64,000 bases of DNA from Phycisphaerae bacterium RAS1 (GTDB taxonomy: Bacteria; Planctomycetota; Phycisphaerae; UBA1845; Fen-1342), in the NCBI GenBank assembly GCA_007859745.1, contig SMLU01000001.1:248001-312000 (forward strand). The letters are read 5' to 3'. Positions 3,614 to 62,869 of the stretch are shown here, in pieces. Below the pieces are notes generated by a model. The model saw only the letters and a list, made by a program, of their open reading frames with translations, was not told the origin of the DNA and ran no database searches. Numbering within the stretch: position 1 is the first letter of the stretch; each line of letters begins with the position of its first letter. Position numbers and translations under genes: made by a program.

Positions 3614-3679
3614 GGGGAGCATCGGCGTCTCGCCGGTGCGCCCGCGGCTGGTCGCACCGGCGAGACGCCGATGCTCCCC
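3614..3679. repeat. Palindromic repeat, family B (GGGGAGCATCGGCGTCTCGC type)
   Basis: Inverted arms of about 26 bases (GGGGAGCATCGGCGTCTCGC and complement) sit between nuoH and nuoI. Related copies are at 32650-32698 and 41862-41929. It could form a strong RNA hairpin in the nuoH-nuoI transcript, but no T-tract follows, so a terminator role is doubtful. Confidence 0.85.
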
Positions 3680-5631: not shown

Positions 5632-5695
5632 TTCGGATGGAACGGACATCTTGCCCGTTCCGGAGACCGCGGGGACGCGCGAGACGCCCGTCCCA
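5632..5695. repeat. Palindromic repeats, family G (GGGACGGGCGTCTCGCCCG / GGAACGGGCATCTTGCCC type)
   Basis: Two short adjacent palindromes: GGAACGGACATCTTGCCCGTTCC followed by GGGACGCGCGAGACGCCCGTCCC (shown here as types; each is an inverted repeat of about 10 bases per arm). The same motif recurs at 44911-44975 and in frame inside a gene at 60217-60403. The trailing ACCCAAATGTTCACA is also shared with the 44.9 kb copy. Confidence 0.8.
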
Positions 5696-16726: not shown

Positions 16727-19705
16727 TCACTTGGCGTCCAGCCAATTCTCCGCGCACTCGACGTCCACGCGTAGCGGCACGCTGAGGGGCAACGCCGTGC
16801 TCATGACGTCCGCGACGATGCGCCCCAGCGCCTCGGCCTCGCCGCGCGGCGCTTCACACACCAGCTCATCGTGCACCTGGAGCAGCATCCGTAGCGGCAG
16901 CTTCTCATCTCGAACGCGATTGTGAAGCTGGATCATCGCCGTTTTTATCAAATCGGCCGCCGACCCCTGAATCACCGTGTTCACCGAGAGCCGTTCCGCC
17001 AGCGCCCGGGCCGCGCGGTTGCGGGAGTCGATGTCCGTGATCGGCCGGCGGCGGCCGAGGATCGTCCGCACCGCCCCGTCGCGCCGCGCCGTCTCGATGC
17101 ACTGGTTGATGAACCCGCGGATGCGGCTGTAGCGGGCGAAATAGGCGTCGATGAATTTCTGCGCCTCGGTGCGGCTCATTCCGGTGGTCTGCGCCAAGCC
17201 GTGCGCCGTCTGGCCGTAGATGATGCCGAAATTCACCGCCTTGGCCTTGGCCCGCATTTCCTTGGTGACGGCGTCGAGTGCGACGTTGTTCACCTGAGAC
17301 GCGACAAAGGCGTGAATGTCCAGGTCGTCGGCGAACGCCCGCTTGAGCGCCTCATCCTGGCAGAAGTGCGCGAGGATGCGCAGCTCGACTTGTGAATAGT
17401 CCGCGACGATCAGCAGTTCGTCGTCCCCGCGGGCGCGGAACGCCCGGCGAATCTGCCGGCCCATCTCCGTCCGCACCGGGATGTTCTGCAGGTTCGGCTC
17501 ACTGCTGGAGAGCCGGCCGGTGACGGCGCCGGTCTGGTGGAAACTGGTGTGAATCCGGCCGGTGCGGCGGCTGACGGCCCGCGGCAGCGCGTCCACGTAC
17601 GTCCCGCGCAGCTTCTGAATCTCGCGATGCTCCAAGAGCAGCTTCAGCAGCGGATGTCCGGTTTCTTCGGCCAGGATTTCGAGCGTCTCGGCGTCGGTAG
17701 AGCGGGCGGTCTTGGTGCGCTTCACCACGCGAAGCTGCATCCGGTCGAAGAGAACCTCGCCCAACTGCTTGGGCGAGTCCAGGTTGAACGGCCCGCCGGC
17801 GAGCTGGTGGCATTCGACCACGATCTGCTCGATGCGGGCTGACATCCGCCGGCCCATGTCGCGCAGGTAGTCCAGATCGACGCGGATGCCATGGTGCTCC
17901 ATGTTCGCCAGCACGCGCACCAGCGGCATCTCGACCTCGTGCGCGAGCGTGCCCAATCCGAGCGGTTCCACCGACGGCTCGAACAGCTCCTTGAGCCGCC
18001 AGGTATAGTCGGCGTCTTCCGCGGCGTACTCGGCGACGCGCTCGAGCGGCACCTGGTCCATCACGAGCTGGTCGCGGCCGGCGCCGATCAGGTCGGTAAG
18101 CGGGATCATCTCGTGCGCGAGGTAGGTGCGCGCCAGCGGGTCGAGGCCATAGGAATTCCGCGTCGGCTCGACCAGAAACGCCGTGATCATGGTGTCAAGA
18201 ATCGGCCCGCGGACGGTCATGCCGGCGTTTTCGAGCACGATCAGGTCGTACTTGATGTTGTGGCCGATCTTCCGCTTCGTGTCGTCGGCGAGAATCGGCG
18301 CCAGGCGGGCGCGGACCTCATCAAGCGGCAGCGCCCCGCCGAAAATGCATCGCACCGGTATGTAAACGCCCCAGCTGGGCCGCCAGGAAAACGACAGGCC
18401 GACCAGTTCGGCATCGACCGGGTTTACGCCGGTGGTTTCGGTGTCGAGCACGAATTCAGGCCGCTTCGCCAAGTCTGCGACGAACGCATCCAGCGCGGCG
18501 GGCGTGTTGACGAGCACGTATTCGCCGCCGTCGGGCGCGCTCAGCGCTGCCGAACGTTGCGCAAACGCGGCGGGGTCCTGTTTTGTAGGGTGGGCCGTGC
18601 CCACCTCCTCTGCGGCGTCGGCGGCGCCCGACGCCACTTGCCCGGCGAGCGCGGCAGGCGAATGGTGGGCACGGCCCACCCTACGTTCCGCATCCCCGGC
18701 CGAGGGCGGCCGGGCCACAGAATCGGCCGAGGGCGGCCGGGCCACAGAATCGGCCGAGGGCGGCCGGGCCACAGAATCGGCCGAGGGCGGCCGGGCCACA
18801 GAATCGGCCGAGGGCGGCCGGGCTACACGATCGGCGGCGTCCGCTGCGCGATTCGCCGGCAACTGATCGGTCAATCGGCGGATGCCCAGCTCTTCGAAAA
18901 TAGGTCGGACCGCGGACCAGGTGAATTGGTCTGGTTGGGCCGCGGAGAGGTCAAGTTCGATCGGCACGTCATCGCGCAGCGTTACGAGCTTGCGCGTGAC
19001 CGGGGCGAGCGCCGCAAACGCCTTCACGTTGTCGCGCTGCTTGGGCGTGAGCTTGTCGGCGTTGTCGATCACGCCCTGAGCCGAGCCGTACTGCTGAATC
19101 AGTTTGGCCGCCGTTTTCGGCCCGATTCCAGGAACGCCGGGCACATTGTCCACGGTGTCGCCGATCAGCGTCTGCGCCTCAACCGCCTGCTGCGGCCACC
19201 AGCCCTTGGTCGCAAAGAGCACGTCCGGCGTGATGACTTCGTCTTTGCCGGGGTCGTAGAGCGAGACGTGCGGCCCGAGCAGTTGCTCCAGGTCCTTATC
19301 CTTGCTCACGAGGTAGACGTGCAGGTCGTCGCTCGATAGCCGCCGCGCCAGCGTCGCCATGATGTCATCCGCCTCGAAGCCGTGCATCCGCAGGATCGGC
19401 AGCCGGGCGGCGTTCAGGATTGAGAGGATGCGGTTGAACTGCGGCTCCATGTCCTCCGGCGCGGGGTCGCGATGGGCTTTGTATTCCGGGTAGATTTCCT
19501 TGCGAAACACGGTCTCGTCGGAGACGTCCAGCACGGTCACGAGATAATCCGGCTTCTTGTCACGCAGCAGGTTCAGGATCATCTGGCAGAAGACGTGCAC
19601 CGCCCGCGTCGGCTCGCCCCGCGGCGAGGTGAGGTTCCCGAACGGGGCGTAATAGGCGCGGTATATCTGTGCGTGGCCGTCGATCAGGTAGAGCGTCTTC
19701 GGCAT
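16727..19705 (-). CDS. polA: DNA polymerase I with repeat-derived insert in the interdomain linker
   Basis: Encodes 992 residues. Residues 1-280 form the 5'-3' exonuclease (LYLIDGHAQIYRAYYA, DADD-type acidic sites such as MHGFEADDIMA). A proofreading exonuclease follows with DTETTG near residue 418, HNIKYDLIVL and YAAEDADYTWRL, so the DEDD residues are kept and proofreading is probably active. The polymerase domain has DYSQVELRILAH (motif A), RAKAKAVNFGIIYGQ (motif B) and QVHDELV (motif C). Residues about 292-374 are unlike any polymerase. They translate a palindromic repeat of family E and five 9-residue units (RPPSADSVA), and lie between the first two domains. The frame is intact, so the gene is judged functional. 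Confidence 0.95.
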   Translation of the reverse strand: MPKTLYLIDGHAQIYRAYYAPFGNLTSPRGEPTRAVHVFCQMILNLLRDKKPDYLVTVLDVSDETVFRKEIYPEYKAHRDPAPEDMEPQFNRILSILNAARLPILRMHGFEADDIMATLARRLSSDDLHVYLVSKDKDLEQLLGPHVSLYDPGKDEVITPDVLFATKGWWPQQAVEAQTLIGDTVDNVPGVPGIGPKTAAKLIQQYGSAQGVIDNADKLTPKQRDNVKAFAALAPVTRKLVTLRDDVPIELDLSAAQPDQFTWSAVRPIFEELGIRRLTDQLPANRAADAADRVARPPSADSVARPPSADSVARPPSADSVARPPSADSVARPPSAGDAERRVGRAHHSPAALAGQVASGAADAAEEVGTAHPTKQDPAAFAQRSAALSAPDGGEYVLVNTPAALDAFVADLAKRPEFVLDTETTGVNPVDAELVGLSFSWRPSWGVYIPVRCIFGGALPLDEVRARLAPILADDTKRKIGHNIKYDLIVLENAGMTVRGPILDTMITAFLVEPTRNSYGLDPLARTYLAHEMIPLTDLIGAGRDQLVMDQVPLERVAEYAAEDADYTWRLKELFEPSVEPLGLGTLAHEVEMPLVRVLANMEHHGIRVDLDYLRDMGRRMSARIEQIVVECHQLAGGPFNLDSPKQLGEVLFDRMQLRVVKRTKTARSTDAETLEILAEETGHPLLKLLLEHREIQKLRGTYVDALPRAVSRRTGRIHTSFHQTGAVTGRLSSSEPNLQNIPVRTEMGRQIRRAFRARGDDELLIVADYSQVELRILAHFCQDEALKRAFADDLDIHAFVASQVNNVALDAVTKEMRAKAKAVNFGIIYGQTAHGLAQTTGMSRTEAQKFIDAYFARYSRIRGFINQCIETARRDGAVRTILGRRRPITDIDSRNRAARALAERLSVNTVIQGSAADLIKTAMIQLHNRVRDEKLPLRMLLQVHDELVCEAPRGEAEALGRIVADVMSTALPLSVPLRVDVECAENWLDAK
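18585..18684. repeat. Palindromic repeat, family E, in frame inside polA
   Basis: Arms GTAGGGTGGGCCGTGCCCAC and complement flank about 58 bases. The same element is intergenic at 34119-34183 and 58415-58478. Here it is translated as part of the polA linker without a stop codon. Confidence 0.9.
18698..18832. repeat. Five 27-base tandem repeats inside polA (family H)
   Basis: Unit GGCCGAGGGCGGCCGGGCCA plus CAGAATC, starting at 18698, 18725, 18752, 18779 and 18806; the last unit diverges (GGCTACACGATC). Each unit is 9 codons, read as RPPSADSVA on the polA strand. The GGCCGAGGGCGGCCGGGCTA core also occurs alone in intergenic sequence at 58287-58308. Confidence 0.95.
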
Positions 19706-19752
19706 GGCGGCGTATTAGAAGCTATTGAGAGGCTCGTCGCACGCGGCCGGCC

Positions 19753-32649: not shown

Positions 32650-32698
32650 GGGAACATCGGCGTCTCGCCGGTGCTCCGGCGGGACGCCGATGCTCCCC
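32650..32698. repeat. Palindromic repeat, family B
   Basis: Arms GGGAACATCGGCGTCTCGCC and complement GGGACGCCGATGCTCCCC with a very short loop. It lies in the 201-base gap before the next plus-strand gene; the rest of that gap shows no gene. Confidence 0.85.
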
Positions 32699-44910: not shown

Positions 44911-44975
44911 GGGTGGGACGGGCGAGACGCCCGTCCCACCCAAATGTTCACAAGCTCAGACGCCCGTCCCACCCA
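44911..44975. repeat. Palindromic repeat, family G
   Basis: GGTGGGACGGGCGAGACGCC with ACGCCCGTCCCACCCAA repeated twice. The ATGTTCACA stretch and the partial duplication match the copy near 5695. It lies in the gap upstream of the MBOAT gene. Confidence 0.85.
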
Positions 44976-47765: not shown

Positions 47766-49797
47766 ATGCGAACCTCAATTCATGCTCAGAAGATCTGCGG
47801 ATATGTCTTGCTTGCTCTGGGATCGGCCGTTTTCGCTACTCGGCAGCTAAACGCCCAGGGCACGGGCGTTTGGGGATGTCTGGATGAGATTCCCGTGAAC
47901 CCGGCGCTGGCCCAGTTCAGCTCGACCTTCCTGGACGACCACTGACCGGCGGCTACCTGTTTCTCGGATGGTCCACGGAAGGAGCGCGCATCGACGGGGC
48001 ATATGCCGCGTTCATTGTGACGCAGGAGCTAGACGGTCGAATTGTCCTTTGGGGGGCGACCCAGAGCGCCGGGAGCGGAGCGCTCGCGATCGAGAATGAG
48101 TGGGGTGCGGACGTCGGAAACGCTGAGGATTCCGACCCGCGTTTCGCGGAGCTCATCGACGCTTGGTTCCACACCAACGGCTACCCGGTGCCGGGCGAGA
48201 CATGGGAGGTCATCGGGGAGGGCGCGGGCGTCGAAGATCTGCTGCTGACGGTCGGTCAGCTGCCGCCAAGCGGCTACGGCCCCGGCTGGCGTGACGTGCT
48301 TGCCTGGTTGAAACGCCTCTTTTGTTGTCTGTTCGGGAACTGCCGACCTCCCGGCGATCCGCATGGCGACGACGATGGCGACGGGATTCCCAATAACCGC
48401 GACAACGACGACGACAATGACGGAGTTCCCGATGGCGAGGAGGACGACGACGGGGACGGAATTCCAAACAACCGCGACCTTGATGACGACAACGATGGGA
48501 CTCTCGACGTGAACGAGGACGACGACGGAGACGGCCAGCCAAACAATCGCGACGGAGATGATGACGACGACGGGATTCCCGACCACGAAGACGATGACGA
48601 TGGCGATAACGTCCCCAACAACAACGACAACGATGATGACGGGGACAGCGTTCCAGACGATCAAGAAGATGATGACGGCGACGGCGCGACGAATGCGAAC
48701 GACAACGACGACGACGGTGACGGTACGCCCGACGGGCAGGAGGACGATGACGGCGACGGACTTCCGAGCGACGCGGACTCCGATGACGACGGCGATGGCG
48801 ATGATGACGATGACGACGATGATGGGGGCGGCGGCGGCGGCGGAAGTGGCGGGAACGCGTTCACCATTTCCGTGGGAGCCGTCGCGATTGATACGCGCCC
48901 GCTTCTGGCTTGGCCGAACAGAACGGAAATCGCTCCACCCCCGACGGGCTTCCAGTGGAGCCGGGCGCGCGGCGGCATGTTTCCGGTGGTAAGCGGTTTC
49001 GACGAGCTGGTCGGCGTCGCGATGGGATTCCGCGTAAGCCGTTCAACCTCGTCAGCGAGCTTGGATTGCGCGCGATCTACGGGACGACGGTATTGGCTGC
49101 GAACTCCGTCCAGTTTGATGCGAGCGTGCCGGATCCATGGGACATGAGTATCTATCTCCCACCCATCGCGCCGCTGCCGGTGTCGACGATCGGAAAGGCC
49201 TACACGCCGCTCCGCCTGGAATGGACGAGCGACGGGGTCATCTGGCGCGTGTTCTGTATCGCACAACCGAGCGTTTGGTACTTTGTGACAGCCGCGCCGC
49301 CTCTCTGTCCAGACCCGTTCGACGGCGGTATGGAGGCGCTGGCAGAGTACGCGTCAGCTTGCCATTCAAGTGAGTCGATCGCAACTTCTCTAGCAACCGG
49401 CCTCGGCACGTTGACATACCGCCCCGCCGACGGGGAACCGTTCGCACAGCTCCCGCGAATCGCGAGTACGGGACTTCCCGCAACGCTCCGGATCGGCGAG
49501 TCGCTTGAGCTGCAGCCGGTGGTTGAGGGCATGGGCGTCCCGAGCTACGTCACACTTCGCATAGACTCGTCCTACGGACACGTGGGCGCCGTACCGCGCA
49601 CCGGCGGTCGGCTCTCATTGAAAGCGCCCGCTCGACTGCCATCGGCCGGGGGCAGAATCGAATTCGACGCTGAAGGTCGGGGGACTCGAATCCCCGACAC
49701 CAGGCCCGTGGTCCCGACCGTCACCTATGTCGTTACCGCCCTAAACGACGACAACGTACTCGCACGGCACTCGACGACTGTCGAATTGCGCGAATGA
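47766..49797 (+). pseudogene. Secreted Asp-rich (thrombospondin-type-3-like) protein, split by two frameshifts
   Basis: Three overlapping reading frames together make one protein. The first (47766-47945) has a signal peptide (GYVLLALGSAVFATRQLNA) and stops at 47945. The second continues after a one-base shift (LTGGYLFLGWSTEGARIDG) through 49147 and holds the Asp-rich repeats. The third, in another frame, covers about 49040-49797 (FNLVSELGLRAIYGTTVL) and ends in TVELRE. Two missing bases would explain both shifts, one of them possibly in the CC run near 47940. Its C-terminal 115 residues resemble the next gene's. Either sequencing error or recent decay is possible; the coding pattern on both sides is preserved. 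Confidence 0.7.
48361..48850. repeat. Degenerate Asp-rich repeats, about twelve half-units of 36-39 bases
   Basis: Translated as alternating DDDGDGxPNNxDN and DDDGDGxPDxxE units (examples DDDGDGIPNNRDN, DDDNDGVPDGEE, DDDGDGTPDGQE). Spacing and aspartate positions match thrombospondin type 3 calcium-binding repeats. They end in a GGGGGGGSGG linker. An antisense reading of this stretch gives a spurious valine-rich ORF. Confidence 0.9.
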
Positions 49798-59488: not shown

Positions 59489-59609
59489 TCAGAGCCGCGA
59501 CCGTGCGGGAGCGGTGCGTAGAGAACCGCTTGCTCACGCGCGCGGCTCGGATTCCGCTTGCTCACGCGCGCGGCTCGGATTCCGCTTGCTCACGCGCGCG
59601 GCTCGGATG
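59489..59609. repeat. Palindromic repeat family D with three tandem 28-base units
   Basis: The family D left arm (AGAGCCGCGACCGTGCGGGA) starts the element. Its right arm, CCGCTTGCTCACGCGCGCGG plus CTCGGATT, is present three times in tandem (59526-59553, 59554-59581, 59582-59609). Arm duplication of this kind suggests slippage or repeated copying. Confidence 0.9.
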
Positions 59610-59621
59610 TGACGCCGGACG

Positions 59622-60674
59622 TTACGTGCCGGTTTCGAGCCGGCTCAGCAAGTCCGCGTCGCGGGCGGCGAGGCTGGGGATTGCCTCGCCCGCGTAAGTC
59701 GCGACGTCGATCGGAAACACCTCGCCGCCGTCCAGGCGGCGCATCGCTCCGCCCGCCTCGCACACCAGCAGCCAGCCAGCGGCGATGTCCCAGAGCTTGC
59801 TGTCGGAAATCAGCGCCGCGTCCATGCGGCCTTCGGCCACGAGCGCGAGGTGCAGCGCCGTCGAGCCGAGATTCCGCACGACGACGCGGTCCACCCACGA
59901 GTGAATGAGGTCGAACGCCGGCCCGCGGCTCGTGCTCGGAATTCCCGCGACGGGTTTCTGGCTGATCGCGCCGCCGGCGCGCTCGTGCGACCAGCGCGCG
60001 GCGGGCTGAGCGTTGACGAGAAGTCCGCCGCCGGTGCGGGCGGAAAACATCTCGTCCAGATCAGGCCAGTAGATCGCGCCGGCCACGGGAAAGCCGCCGT
60101 GCATGACGGCGACGGAACACGCGTAGAGCGGGACGCCGCGAAGAAAACTGCGCGTACCGTCGATCGGGTCGATGATCCAGCAGTAGCCCTCGTCGCGGCG
60201 CGGCGGCGTTGGGAACGATCCGGGTGGAACGGGCGTCTCGCCCGATCCGGGTGGGACGGGCGTCTCGCCCGATCCGGGTGGGACGGGCGTCTCGCCCGTC
60301 CTGTCCGAGCCAGGAACGGGCAAGATGCCCATTCCACCCGACGCAACGGGCAAGATGCCCATTCCACCCGACGCAACGGGCAAGATGCCCGTTCCACCCG
60401 ACGAGTTTCTCCGGGTCGGCGCTGGGATGTCCTCTTCCGCAATGATCGCATCCCCCGGCCGCTGCGCCAGAACCGCGACGATCGCGGCCGCCTGCGCCGC
60501 TTCGTCGGCGTCGGTGACTTCGCTGCCGTCGGCCTTTCGCCGCGCGTGAAGCTCGGTTTTGAACGCGGCCCGCGCCACACTGCCGCCGGCGCGGGCGGCG
60601 GTTTCGGCGAGAAGCCGCAGCGAATCCAGAAACGCGGCGTTAAGGGCGTTAGGCGCGGGGCGCGGCGCGTTCAT
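59622..60674 (-). CDS. Inositol-monophosphatase-family enzyme with repeat-derived insert
   Basis: Encodes 350 residues. The metal-binding motifs are AIIAEEDIPAP near residue 77, WIIDPIDGTRSFLRGVP near 168 (DPIDGT, with catalytic Asp), and KLWDIAAGWLLVCEAGG near 300 (WDxAAG). These are typical of inositol monophosphatase and HisN/CysQ phosphatases. Between the first two motifs (residues about 90-152) is a stretch not found in the family, made of repeated GGMGILPVAS and TGETPVPPGS units. These are translations of palindromic repeats (60217-60403). The ATG at 60674 overlaps the yidC stop by four bases. Substrate not predictable. Confidence 0.85.
   Translation of the reverse strand: MNAPRPAPNALNAAFLDSLRLLAETAARAGGSVARAAFKTELHARRKADGSEVTDADEAAQAAAIVAVLAQRPGDAIIAEEDIPAPTRRNSSGGTGILPVASGGMGILPVASGGMGILPVPGSDRTGETPVPPGSGETPVPPGSGETPVPPGSFPTPPRRDEGYCWIIDPIDGTRSFLRGVPLYACSVAVMHGGFPVAGAIYWPDLDEMFSARTGGGLLVNAQPAARWSHERAGGAISQKPVAGIPSTSRGPAFDLIHSWVDRVVVRNLGSTALHLALVAEGRMDAALISDSKLWDIAAGWLLVCEAGGAMRRLDGGEVFPIDVATYAGEAIPSLAARDADLLSRLETGT
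60217..60403. repeat. Tandem family G palindromes in frame inside the IMPase-family gene
   Basis: Three 27-base units of GATCCGGGTGGGACGGGCGT type (60217-60297) are followed by three 30-base units of ACGGGCAAGATGCCCATTCC type (60315-60403). Each unit is a palindrome of the family seen at 5632 and 44911, and both unit lengths are multiples of three, so the frame is kept. Confidence 0.9.
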
Positions 60675-62773
60675 CGCGTTTTCTTCGGCGCCTTGCCGGA
60701 GGCCTGGTCGGCCGAGCGCTGCAACTCGTCGTACTGGGCGGCCATCCGTTTCAGAAAGCGCGCCACGATGCCGGGCGAACGCGGCTTGTTCGCCGCCGGT
60801 CCGAGCAGCTCGCGCCGCGCCTTGTCGCGGTCGATCTGCCGGCGGATGCGGAGCGACTCGAAAATGCCGAAGACGTTGGTCGAGAGCCAGTACAGGTTCA
60901 GCCCCGATGGCATGTAATAGAACATGAACGGAAACATGATGCTCATCATGGTCGCGATCATCTGCTGCTGGCGGAGCTGCTCCTCGGGCGACATGCCGCC
61001 GCCGGGCTTGTGCTGGCCGGCGCGGGCCGCGTCCATCTTGGCCTGCATCTGCGGCTTGGGCATGTACTTCTGCTGCAGGTACATGCTCACGCCCATCAGG
61101 ATCGGCAGCACGTTCAGCGACGGGACGTTCGTGAAGATCGTCCCGATCAGCGGCAGCCAGCCCAGGATCGGAATCGTGATCGGCTGCGCGAAGTGAATCA
61201 GCGCGTCGGGGCTGGACAGGTCCTTGATCCACCAGCCGTCGAATGGCGCCAGGCGCATGTGCACGTCGGTGTTCAGCCCCTGCCACAGCGCCACCAGGAT
61301 CGGCATCTGGATAAACAGCGGCACCATCGCCACCAGCGACGCCGCCGGGTTTACGTTCTCCTCGGCGTACAGCCGCATCATTTCCTGCTGCTGCTTGACC
61401 TTGTCGTCGGCCAGGCGCTCCTTGATTTCGTTCATCTTCGGCTGGATGCGGACCATCGCCTCCTGCATCTTGAACATCGATTTCTGCTGGAAGACGGCCA
61501 GCGGGTGCAGCAGGCCGCGGACGATGATGACCAGCACGATGATCGCTATGCCGTAGTTGCCGACGACGAACTTGATGCCGCGCAGCAGCTCGGTCATCAG
61601 GTAAGGCAGCGGCTGAAAAGTGCACATGCAGGTCTGATCGATGCCCTGGGTCAGGTGATACCCGACCTTGGCCGCATCGTCGAATTCCGGATTCACGCGC
61701 GCGAGAATGTCCGAGTCCTTGGGGCCGGCGTAGATTTCGAAGCGCTGCGACGCGCTGCCGCCGGCGGGGATCGGGACGGCGGTCGTGTAAATCCGTGCGA
61801 GCAGATCGCCGGGGTCCGTCTCCGGCGACGCGACCGTTCCGAGCCGTCCCTCGACGCGCTGGATCAGCTTGCCGGCGCCGTCGCCCAGCGGGCGGGTGAA
61901 GACGCCGAAATAGCGATCCGTCAGCGCGGTCCAGACAAAGTCTCCGGCGTCGGCGCCGAGCAGCTTGGCGGCTTCTCCGGCGTCCATCGACTTTTTCAAG
62001 CCGGCGCGCTGCTGCGGATGAGCGATGGCGACGTTCGCGCCCGGCTTGTGCTGGGCCGCCATCACGCGGCGCATGTCATACTGCGGGCTTTCGCGGCGGA
62101 TGCCGATCGGACCGTCGTGCCCGATGATGACGGAGAGCGTGCGCTCGCTGAGATTCTCGATTCCCAGCGACAGCTCGATCAGCGGAGCGCCGCGCTTCAC
62201 TTCGTAGGTCTTCGTCAACCGCAGCACGCCGCCGCCGGCCGGATCGTGCAGGGTGGATGTGAAATCAACGCGGTCCGTACTGTGCGACGCGACTCCCCAG
62301 ATCAGGTCATCCAGCAGCCACGAGCGGTTGTCGAACTCGCGCACCACGATCTGGTAGGTGGCGAACGACGTGCGCTCGCGGTCGCGGTCGGCGACCGGGC
62401 GAATCAGCTCGTAAGGGCGCTTCGCATCGGCCGCGTCCTTGTGAACGAAGCGGTTCTTCTTGTCACGCTCCGTCAGGTGAATCCGCCGGATGGCGGCGCC
62501 GCGCGGCGACAGCTCCACCTCCAACCGCTCCTGCCCGTCGCGGCCGCCGAGCGTCAGCAGCTCTTCGCTCTGGCCGGCCGAGAACGCCAGCGCCGGCCCG
62601 GGTTGCGAGCCGGCCGGGCTCTCGGCCACGGGCGGAGCGCCCGGGGCGCTGGACCCGGCGGGCGTCGTCTGAGCCGGCGGACGTGGGGGAAAAAAGCGGT
62701 TGAGAATGAACGTATAGGCGACGTAGACCAGCAACGCGACCAACAGAGCCTGGACTAACTGCTTACTATCCAT
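60671..62773 (-). CDS. yidC: Membrane protein insertase YidC
   Basis: Inserts and folds proteins in the cytoplasmic membrane. Encodes 700 residues. An N-terminal membrane anchor (LVQALLVALLVYVAYTFIL) and a proline-rich linker precede the periplasmic beta-domain (residues about 75-400). The conserved Oxa1/YidC core follows, with FQQKSMFKMQEAMVRIQPKM, MVPLFIQMPILVALWQGL and FPFMFYYMPSGLNLYWL. The beta-domain and long C-terminal hydrophilic tail are typical of Gram-negative YidC. The TGA overlaps the ATG of the phosphatase-like gene (ATGA), so the two are translated together. rnpA, rpmH and other usual yidC neighbours are missing here. Confidence 0.95.
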   Translation of the reverse strand: MDSKQLVQALLVALLVYVAYTFILNRFFPPRPPAQTTPAGSSAPGAPPVAESPAGSQPGPALAFSAGQSEELLTLGGRDGQERLEVELSPRGAAIRRIHLTERDKKNRFVHKDAADAKRPYELIRPVADRDRERTSFATYQIVVREFDNRSWLLDDLIWGVASHSTDRVDFTSTLHDPAGGGVLRLTKTYEVKRGAPLIELSLGIENLSERTLSVIIGHDGPIGIRRESPQYDMRRVMAAQHKPGANVAIAHPQQRAGLKKSMDAGEAAKLLGADAGDFVWTALTDRYFGVFTRPLGDGAGKLIQRVEGRLGTVASPETDPGDLLARIYTTAVPIPAGGSASQRFEIYAGPKDSDILARVNPEFDDAAKVGYHLTQGIDQTCMCTFQPLPYLMTELLRGIKFVVGNYGIAIIVLVIIVRGLLHPLAVFQQKSMFKMQEAMVRIQPKMNEIKERLADDKVKQQQEMMRLYAEENVNPAASLVAMVPLFIQMPILVALWQGLNTDVHMRLAPFDGWWIKDLSSPDALIHFAQPITIPILGWLPLIGTIFTNVPSLNVLPILMGVSMYLQQKYMPKPQMQAKMDAARAGQHKPGGGMSPEEQLRQQQMIATMMSIMFPFMFYYMPSGLNLYWLSTNVFGIFESLRIRRQIDRDKARRELLGPAANKPRSPGIVARFLKRMAAQYDELQRSADQASGKAPKKTR

Positions 62774-62869
62774 GCCAACCTGCGTGGGTTCGGTCGGATC
62801 CTCGACGCGCCGGCCGCGCACTTGCCGCGGCCGCCCGGGTAAAGCCGGATCGGCGATTGTAGACGCTCG

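Follow-up and report, generated by a model that had tools for sequence, protein, structure and literature searches.

The window (the whole 64,000-nucleotide stretch of DNA that was analysed) contains an IMPase-family gene with an array of palindromic repeats between two of its metal-binding motifs, which raises the questions of where such an array came from and whether it forms part of the enzyme. In the preliminary description, six palindromic units, three of 27 bp and three of 30 bp, all multiples of three, were placed at 60217-60403, and Tandem Repeats Finder located them in the same interval (3.1 copies of 27 bp at 60216-60298, 3.0 copies of 30 bp at 60315-60403). The proposed in-frame interruption was borne out, as the frame stayed open throughout a protein of 350 residues with a match to Pfam PF00459 (E 9e-46). 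In the protein, three GGMGILPVAS units (30-bp repeats) precede three TGETPVPPGS units (27-bp repeats), and the insert lies between E80/E81 and the DPIDGT motif (D169/D172), the two metal-binding motifs to which it had been assigned. The residues E80, E81, D169, D172 and W295/D296 were invariant when the protein was aligned with 25 orthologues drawn from its family and order. Moreover, the two halves proved to be one DNA element in opposite orientations, in which the palindrome ACGGGCGTCTCGCCCGT or AYGGGCATCTTGCCCGT comes after a GTGG head, and together they constitute an expanded REPIN (inverted REP doublet). On folding, the entire insert formed a single hairpin of -149 kcal/mol with a z score of -12.2. 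The coordinates of the features discussed here are collected in Table 1.

Table 1. Repeat units, host genes and embedded transposases in the window and elsewhere in the same genome (G000); positions are those of the window unless a locus is named.
Feature	Position	Strand	Remarks
Inverted pair, REP family D (GGGAGCATCGGCGTCYCGCCGGT)	3615..3678	.	singles near 32656 and 41865
Family A REPIN (inverted pair)	5642..5691	.	outside coding frame
DNA polymerase I gene (polA) with in-frame REP array	16730..19714	-	Pfam 5'-3' exonuclease, 3'-5' exonuclease, DNA_pol_A
Five 27-bp family C units (GTAG/GTGG-headed) in polA	18697..18835	-	reading VARPPSADS; between 5'-3' and 3'-5' exonuclease domains
Single family A REP	44918..44934	-	outside coding frame
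Three 28-bp units, second REP family (B, CCGCTTGCTCACGCGCGCGGCTCGG)	59516..59608	-	directly downstream of IMPase stop
IMPase-family gene bearing the insert, 350 aa	59622..60674	-	Pfam PF00459 E 9e-46; ATGA overlap with yidC; 25 orthologues aligned
Three 27-bp REP units	60217..60299	+	GTGG head and palindrome ACGGGCGTCTCGCCCG; coding-strand reading TGETPVPPGS
Three 30-bp REP units, opposite orientation	60315..60403	-	palindrome AYGGGCATCTTGCCCGT; reading GGMGILPVAS
yidC (membrane protein insertase) open frame	60671..62821	-	stop overlaps IMPase start; identified from sequence, not Pfam
IleRS with RAYT and family A REPs	L257 8474-12730 (C3:128474-132730)		G000
RAYT in ValRS	L291 2681-7423		G000
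RAYT in GcvP	L292 1416-5099		G000
RAYT in PurH	L325 3552-6434		G000

The suggestion that the insert, then put at about 60 residues, forms an external loop was supported by two lines of evidence. The insert was missing from all 25 orthologues of the same family and order, which have a short loop of roughly 7-30 residues instead; and in the AlphaFold2 model most of the sequence outside the insert kept the IMPase fold at pLDDT above 90, and residues 88-161 formed a disordered stretch (pLDDT about 29-43). The REP-encoded part accounts for approximately 62 residues of this disordered stretch of about 74. The insert was also considered as a conserved domain of the enzyme family, and this candidate was rejected, since 0 of the 25 orthologues carry it. 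A repeat loop selected as a functional module of the enzyme, for binding or regulation, would fit the uncharged, flexible peptides that the preferred reading frames yield (see below); with its lack in every orthologue, its disorder in the model and the recurrence of the same peptides in unrelated proteins at unrelated sites, such a module has hardly any probability. The reading that we favour is that the insert is a REP array whose translation gives the enzyme a flexible linker of about 62 residues, which it appears to tolerate. A second IMPase-family paralogue is present in the genome, so this enzyme may be dispensable.

The scale of the repeat family was not recognised in the preliminary description, in which the repeats were not named as REPs or REPINs and no transposase was traced. 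In the window, the palindrome ACGGGCRTCTYGCCCGT had 18 matches with up to 3 mismatches, where 2.3 were expected and 100 shuffles never gave more than 7, and the copies described earlier at 5.6 and 44.9 kb were present, neither flagged as lying in a coding frame. In the 5.5-Mb genome, the family A palindrome had 601 matches with up to 2 mismatches, compared with 10 for the reversed pattern. A census covering 2.04 of the 5.5 Mb, for which some later tiles (parts of C2 and C3 and the end of C1) were picked partly for known repeats or hits, counted 212 copies of family A, 181 of family B and 46 of the GTAG-headed family C, with 0, 0 and 2 for the respective reversed controls. The commonest family A copy was GGGTGGGACGGGCGTCTCGCCCGT (83 of 212), the head GT(A/G)G was conserved, and 74 of 95 neighbouring pairs were arranged '+-', with only 1 pair in the '-+' order. 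Related forms of family A were patchily distributed across the family and order, and several genomes had a variant of their own. Family A therefore displays the hallmarks of REPs and REPINs, namely a high-copy dispersed palindrome, a conserved head and inverted doublets, and the IMPase insert is a lineage-specific, in-frame member among hundreds. A fourth REP family, GGGAGCATCGGCGTCYCGCCGGT, was found in 236 copies in this genome and also in a genome of another family (G237). In addition, the window carries at 48367-48583 a tandem repeat with a 75-bp period (GACGACGACGGAGACGGAATTCC...), which codes for an acidic Asp/Asn-rich stretch resembling the calcium-binding repeats of surface proteins.

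These observations bear on the simplest account of the array, namely an ordinary tandem repeat grown by slippage from local sequence with no mobile element involved. The units are near-identical and in tandem within each half, and it is likely that slippage or recombination enlarged the array once it had arrived. As an account of the origin of the array, however, slippage is very improbable, because the same palindrome occurs at about 600 dispersed places, inverted pairs are frequent and relatives offer no seed sequence.

The search for repeats of the GILPV/GETPVPP type in other proteins, which had been proposed earlier, found them in the same genome. Among 224 REP clusters of three families in the 2.04 Mb, 31 lay in an open coding frame on both sides according to a home-made codon-usage model, which underlies the in-gene calls for REP-only inserts and was complemented by a Pfam check of 9 genes besides the IMPase gene. 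The Pfam-confirmed hosts were DNA polymerase I, ArgRS, CarB, gamma-glutamyltranspeptidase, QueG, a tricorn-like protease, a carboxyltransferase, an ABC transporter ATPase and a prolyl oligopeptidase; LeuRS was recognised as a host from its sequence. The polA array lies in the same window and had escaped notice. Moreover, the spacings of units in the same orientation were multiples of three in 28 of 28 cases inside genes and in 16 of 33 elsewhere (Fisher p 4e-6). Family A was read in the frame giving GGTGVSP in 13 of 14 clusters (p 6e-6 against a random 1/3), and in the frame giving TGETPVPP in 9 of 11 (p 0.001 against the same expectation). Spacing in multiples of three and a preferred frame indicate that in-gene REP inserts are probably read as protein.

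The alternative is post-transcriptional or post-translational removal of the inserts, by intein-like splicing, as RNA introns or by ribosomal bypassing, in which case the enzyme would never contain them. Removal would benefit essential enzymes, and the IMPase insert forms the extremely stable hairpin described above (z -12.2). Nevertheless, removal needs neither an open frame nor units in multiples of three nor a preferred frame, all three of which were observed, and no intein or Hint family appeared in the Pfam scans of IMPase, polA and the other RAYT-bearing or REP-bearing proteins scanned; we consider removal quite unlikely. Translated REP arrays have precedents. A previous investigation in 2013 reported in-frame REPs in other bacteria, among them arrays that encode 43-82 residues and cases in polA and in tRNA synthetase genes (PMC3733652), so that the IMPase insert by itself is a further example of a known phenomenon and not new in kind. 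The intragenic REPs of that study (GTAG and CGTC families of Opitutus terrae, Thauera, Xanthomonas and others) are likewise tetranucleotide-headed palindromes in frame in polA and tRNA synthetases, among other genes; in the present case, however, the repeat families and the host lineage are new and the likely cognate transposase itself lies inside a host gene. Rickettsia palindromic elements, as described in the same paper, are also palindromic, in frame in many genes and translated, but they appear to be a different repeat, and no embedded transposase is described for them there.

A transposase that probably serves family A, likewise missed earlier, is embedded in ileS. The genome contains 20 Y1_Tnp matches, and the ileS locus was the only one of these with family A palindromes (up to 2 mismatches) within 1.5 kb; the other 19 Y1 transposase loci, none of which has such palindromes within that distance, were rejected as the mobiliser of family A. 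At ileS, a complete RAYT domain lies in frame within IleRS in one open frame of 1418 codons, preceded by three family A REPs and followed by one in inverted orientation. This RAYT-bearing IleRS was the sole IleRS match found in the genome, and relatives have an empty site, with the flanks exactly adjacent in G023. AlphaFold2 gave pLDDT 40 for the IleRS chimera, too low to be informative, and 56-81 for the RAYT stretch alone. The pairing of transposase and repeat recurred in other genomes: the REP beside the IleRS RAYT in G233, GTGGCACGGGCTTGCAGCCCGTG, occurred 236 times there and was missing from 11 other genomes, and that beside the IleRS RAYTs in G237 and G011, GGGAGCATCGGCGTCYCGCCGGT, had 87 and 36 copies, respectively. 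In these genomes, the REP adjoining the IleRS RAYT is a high-copy REP of its own genome. The RAYTs of G237 and G011 are sisters (98/69 support), and their host organisms belong to different families. The association between family A copy number and an IleRS RAYT (p 0.02) is weak because G004, G013 and G021 have many family A copies and no RAYT detected in IleRS. Taken together, family A was most likely spread by the RAYT embedded in IleRS, which would catalyse the movement of the REPs.

Several further repeats were noticed in the course of this work. The same ileS gene carries more short in-frame repeats later in the gene (GNREQGTE type, and one REP), and loops of IleRS proteins (L374, L257 and others of the group) repeatedly contain another in-frame repeat of low complexity, EQGTGNREQGTG. 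Elsewhere in the genome, three Y1 transposase genes lie exactly 1578 bp apart (C1:2614693, 2616271 and 2617849; L155-L157), which looks like a recent tandem amplification.

The arrangement at ileS is not unique. The same genome has a ValRS RAYT with family B REPs, a GcvP RAYT with family C REPs and a fourth in PurH, i.e. at least 4 embedded RAYTs, and the flanking REPs differ. A query with an embedded RAYT matched 153 of the 298 genomes of the class. In total, 70 loci were inspected in addition to the ValRS and GcvP cases, 30 from the class search and 40 fetched later for their long open frames (all 40 of which proved embedded, a figure that this choice keeps from being a rate), and 69 embedded RAYTs were assembled. 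The hosts were IleRS (two sites), ValRS (at least 4 sites), LeuRS, PurH, GcvP, RdgB, RarA, DinG-like helicases, DUF1156 proteins and DNA methylases, and ThiE carried the RAYT as a C-terminal extension. In most of the interrupted proteins tested, Pfam assigned domains of the host protein both before and after the RAYT. The RAYT itself did not reach the Pfam listing threshold in some chimeras, where it was identified from alignment and motifs. The usual site in ValRS, LeuRS and IleRS is equivalent, namely the start of the CP1 editing domain. Among the matches listed, frames of at least 540 codons made up about 65 of 87 in the class and about 18 of 137 outside it (p 5e-21), a tally made from the match lists of two different queries; outside the class, most RAYT relatives are free-standing. 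RAYT matches in frames of 1000-1540 codons were also seen outside the class (G344, G656, G471, G379, G357, G377, G446 and G559), and these possibly represent the same embedded arrangement.

Embedded RAYTs might be dismissed as decaying insertions, assembly chimeras or annotation fusions without biological meaning, and a 2018 survey of HUH proteins indeed discarded a few unexpectedly long ones as gene fusions or annotation errors (PMC6006769). Against such a dismissal, both HUH histidines, the Lys, the Trp and the catalytic Tyr were invariant in 69 of 69 embedded RAYTs, none of these residues having been a selection criterion. The dN/dS of the RAYT domain was about 0.07-0.25 in most pairs, which argues for purifying selection, but 0.43 in the closest ValRS pair. 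Furthermore, the insertion sites are repeated in many genera, and two embedded cases come from single-contig genomes (G082 and G282). The artefact explanation is consequently left with next to no probability, and the embedded transposases appear to be kept intact. The N-terminal Thr was also invariant (36 of 36 RAYTs), and in the NP(L/V)(R/K)xG motif the NP was present in at least 90%, the rest being variable. The flanking inverted repeats, whose arms were mostly GTGG- or GTAG-headed palindromes, exceeded the 99th percentile of a null built from other loci in 53 of 64 cases. To judge from these sequences, RAYT-REP units in this planctomycete class commonly lie in frame, and apparently unspliced, in housekeeping genes, an arrangement of which we found no account in the open-access papers searched.

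The history of these elements was examined by comparing them with their hosts. Across families, RAYTs from the same host gene clustered together in the tree (23 label changes, compared with 57 in shuffles), and the two insertion sites were intermixed in the IleRS clade. In three close pairs, the RAYT had diverged far less than its host at synonymous sites: ValRS of G310/G148 (host dS 2.40, RAYT dS 0.26), the methylases of G131/G087 (1.42 and 0.16), and the pair G061/G087 (1.15 and 0.36), with the qualification that two of the three belong to one clade and that dS is partly saturated. Along the gene, synonymous identity rose at the border of the element and fell after it, clearly in 2 of the 6 pairs scanned and weakly in a third. 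General codon constraint does not explain this step because the remaining scanned pairs had none. These pairs suggest that an element far younger than its host gene entered the same site laterally, in a homing-like manner. Lateral entry at the same site predicts such a step in dS, whereas published RAYT biology, in which RAYTs are single-copy, vertically inherited and do not copy themselves (PMC8049555), does not.

The embedded elements share features with several known systems. The RAYT/REPtron (PMC2817692, PMC8266576) shares with them the Y1 HUH domain, the N-terminal Thr, the NP motif, the catalytic Tyr and two inverted GT(A/G)G-headed REPs; however, it is a separate gene, whereas here the RAYT is a domain inside IleRS, ValRS, LeuRS, PurH, GcvP and others. 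Likewise, REPINs (PMC8049555) share the inverted REP doublets, the non-autonomous nature and the high copy number, but some RAYTs in the present study are much younger than their host gene. The description of known RAYTs as separate, single-copy and vertically inherited genes, which is not a defining feature of them, does not match what was observed here, namely embedded RAYTs, several of them in one genome, and a lateral signature in three pairs. Inteins, on the other hand, share the in-frame passenger with a DNA-cleaving domain, the essential genes, the recurrent sites and the signs of lateral entry; they differ in that no intein domain was found here by Pfam and nothing pointed to protein splicing.

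From these comparisons, a mechanism can be proposed. The RAYT would recognise the GT(A/G)G-headed hairpin in single-stranded DNA, a mode of recognition that has been established for TnpA-REP (PMC8266576), and would move REPs or entire RAYT-REP units. Insertions that break a gene would be lost, while in-frame ones in permissive loops would persist, since the REP has an open frame that encodes a bland peptide; the arrays could then expand by single units, in multiples of three. In-frame insertion into permissive loops would thereby open essential genes to REPs and RAYTs, and nesting in an essential gene would guard the RAYT against loss, because a stop or a frameshift there would kill the host gene. 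We regard it as probable, from sequence evidence, that the IMPase insert is an expanded family A REPIN in a permissive loop, that the IleRS RAYT is its likely mobiliser and that it belongs to a wider set of RAYT-REP units in housekeeping genes. A broader proposal, to which we give about an even chance, is that RAYT-REP is an intein-like mobile element without splicing, which would home in frame to a few permissive loops of essential genes (chiefly where the editing domain of ValRS, LeuRS and IleRS begins, and in a single PurH loop). It would remain an active domain within the chimeric essential enzyme, shielded from loss, and would give rise to translated REP arrays proteome-wide, including that of IMPase.

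In conclusion, these findings suggest that IleRS, ValRS and LeuRS can tolerate large insertions that are not spliced out. Surveys may have discarded such chimeras as fusions or errors, and the exclusions of the 2018 survey (PMC6006769) may include some of them. How RAYTs and REPs persist over millions of years without obvious self-copying has been an open question (PMC8049555). A direct answer is offered by a transposase that lies in frame in essential enzymes and conserves its active site: RAYTs would persist by sitting within an indispensable gene and by occasional lateral entry at the same site.
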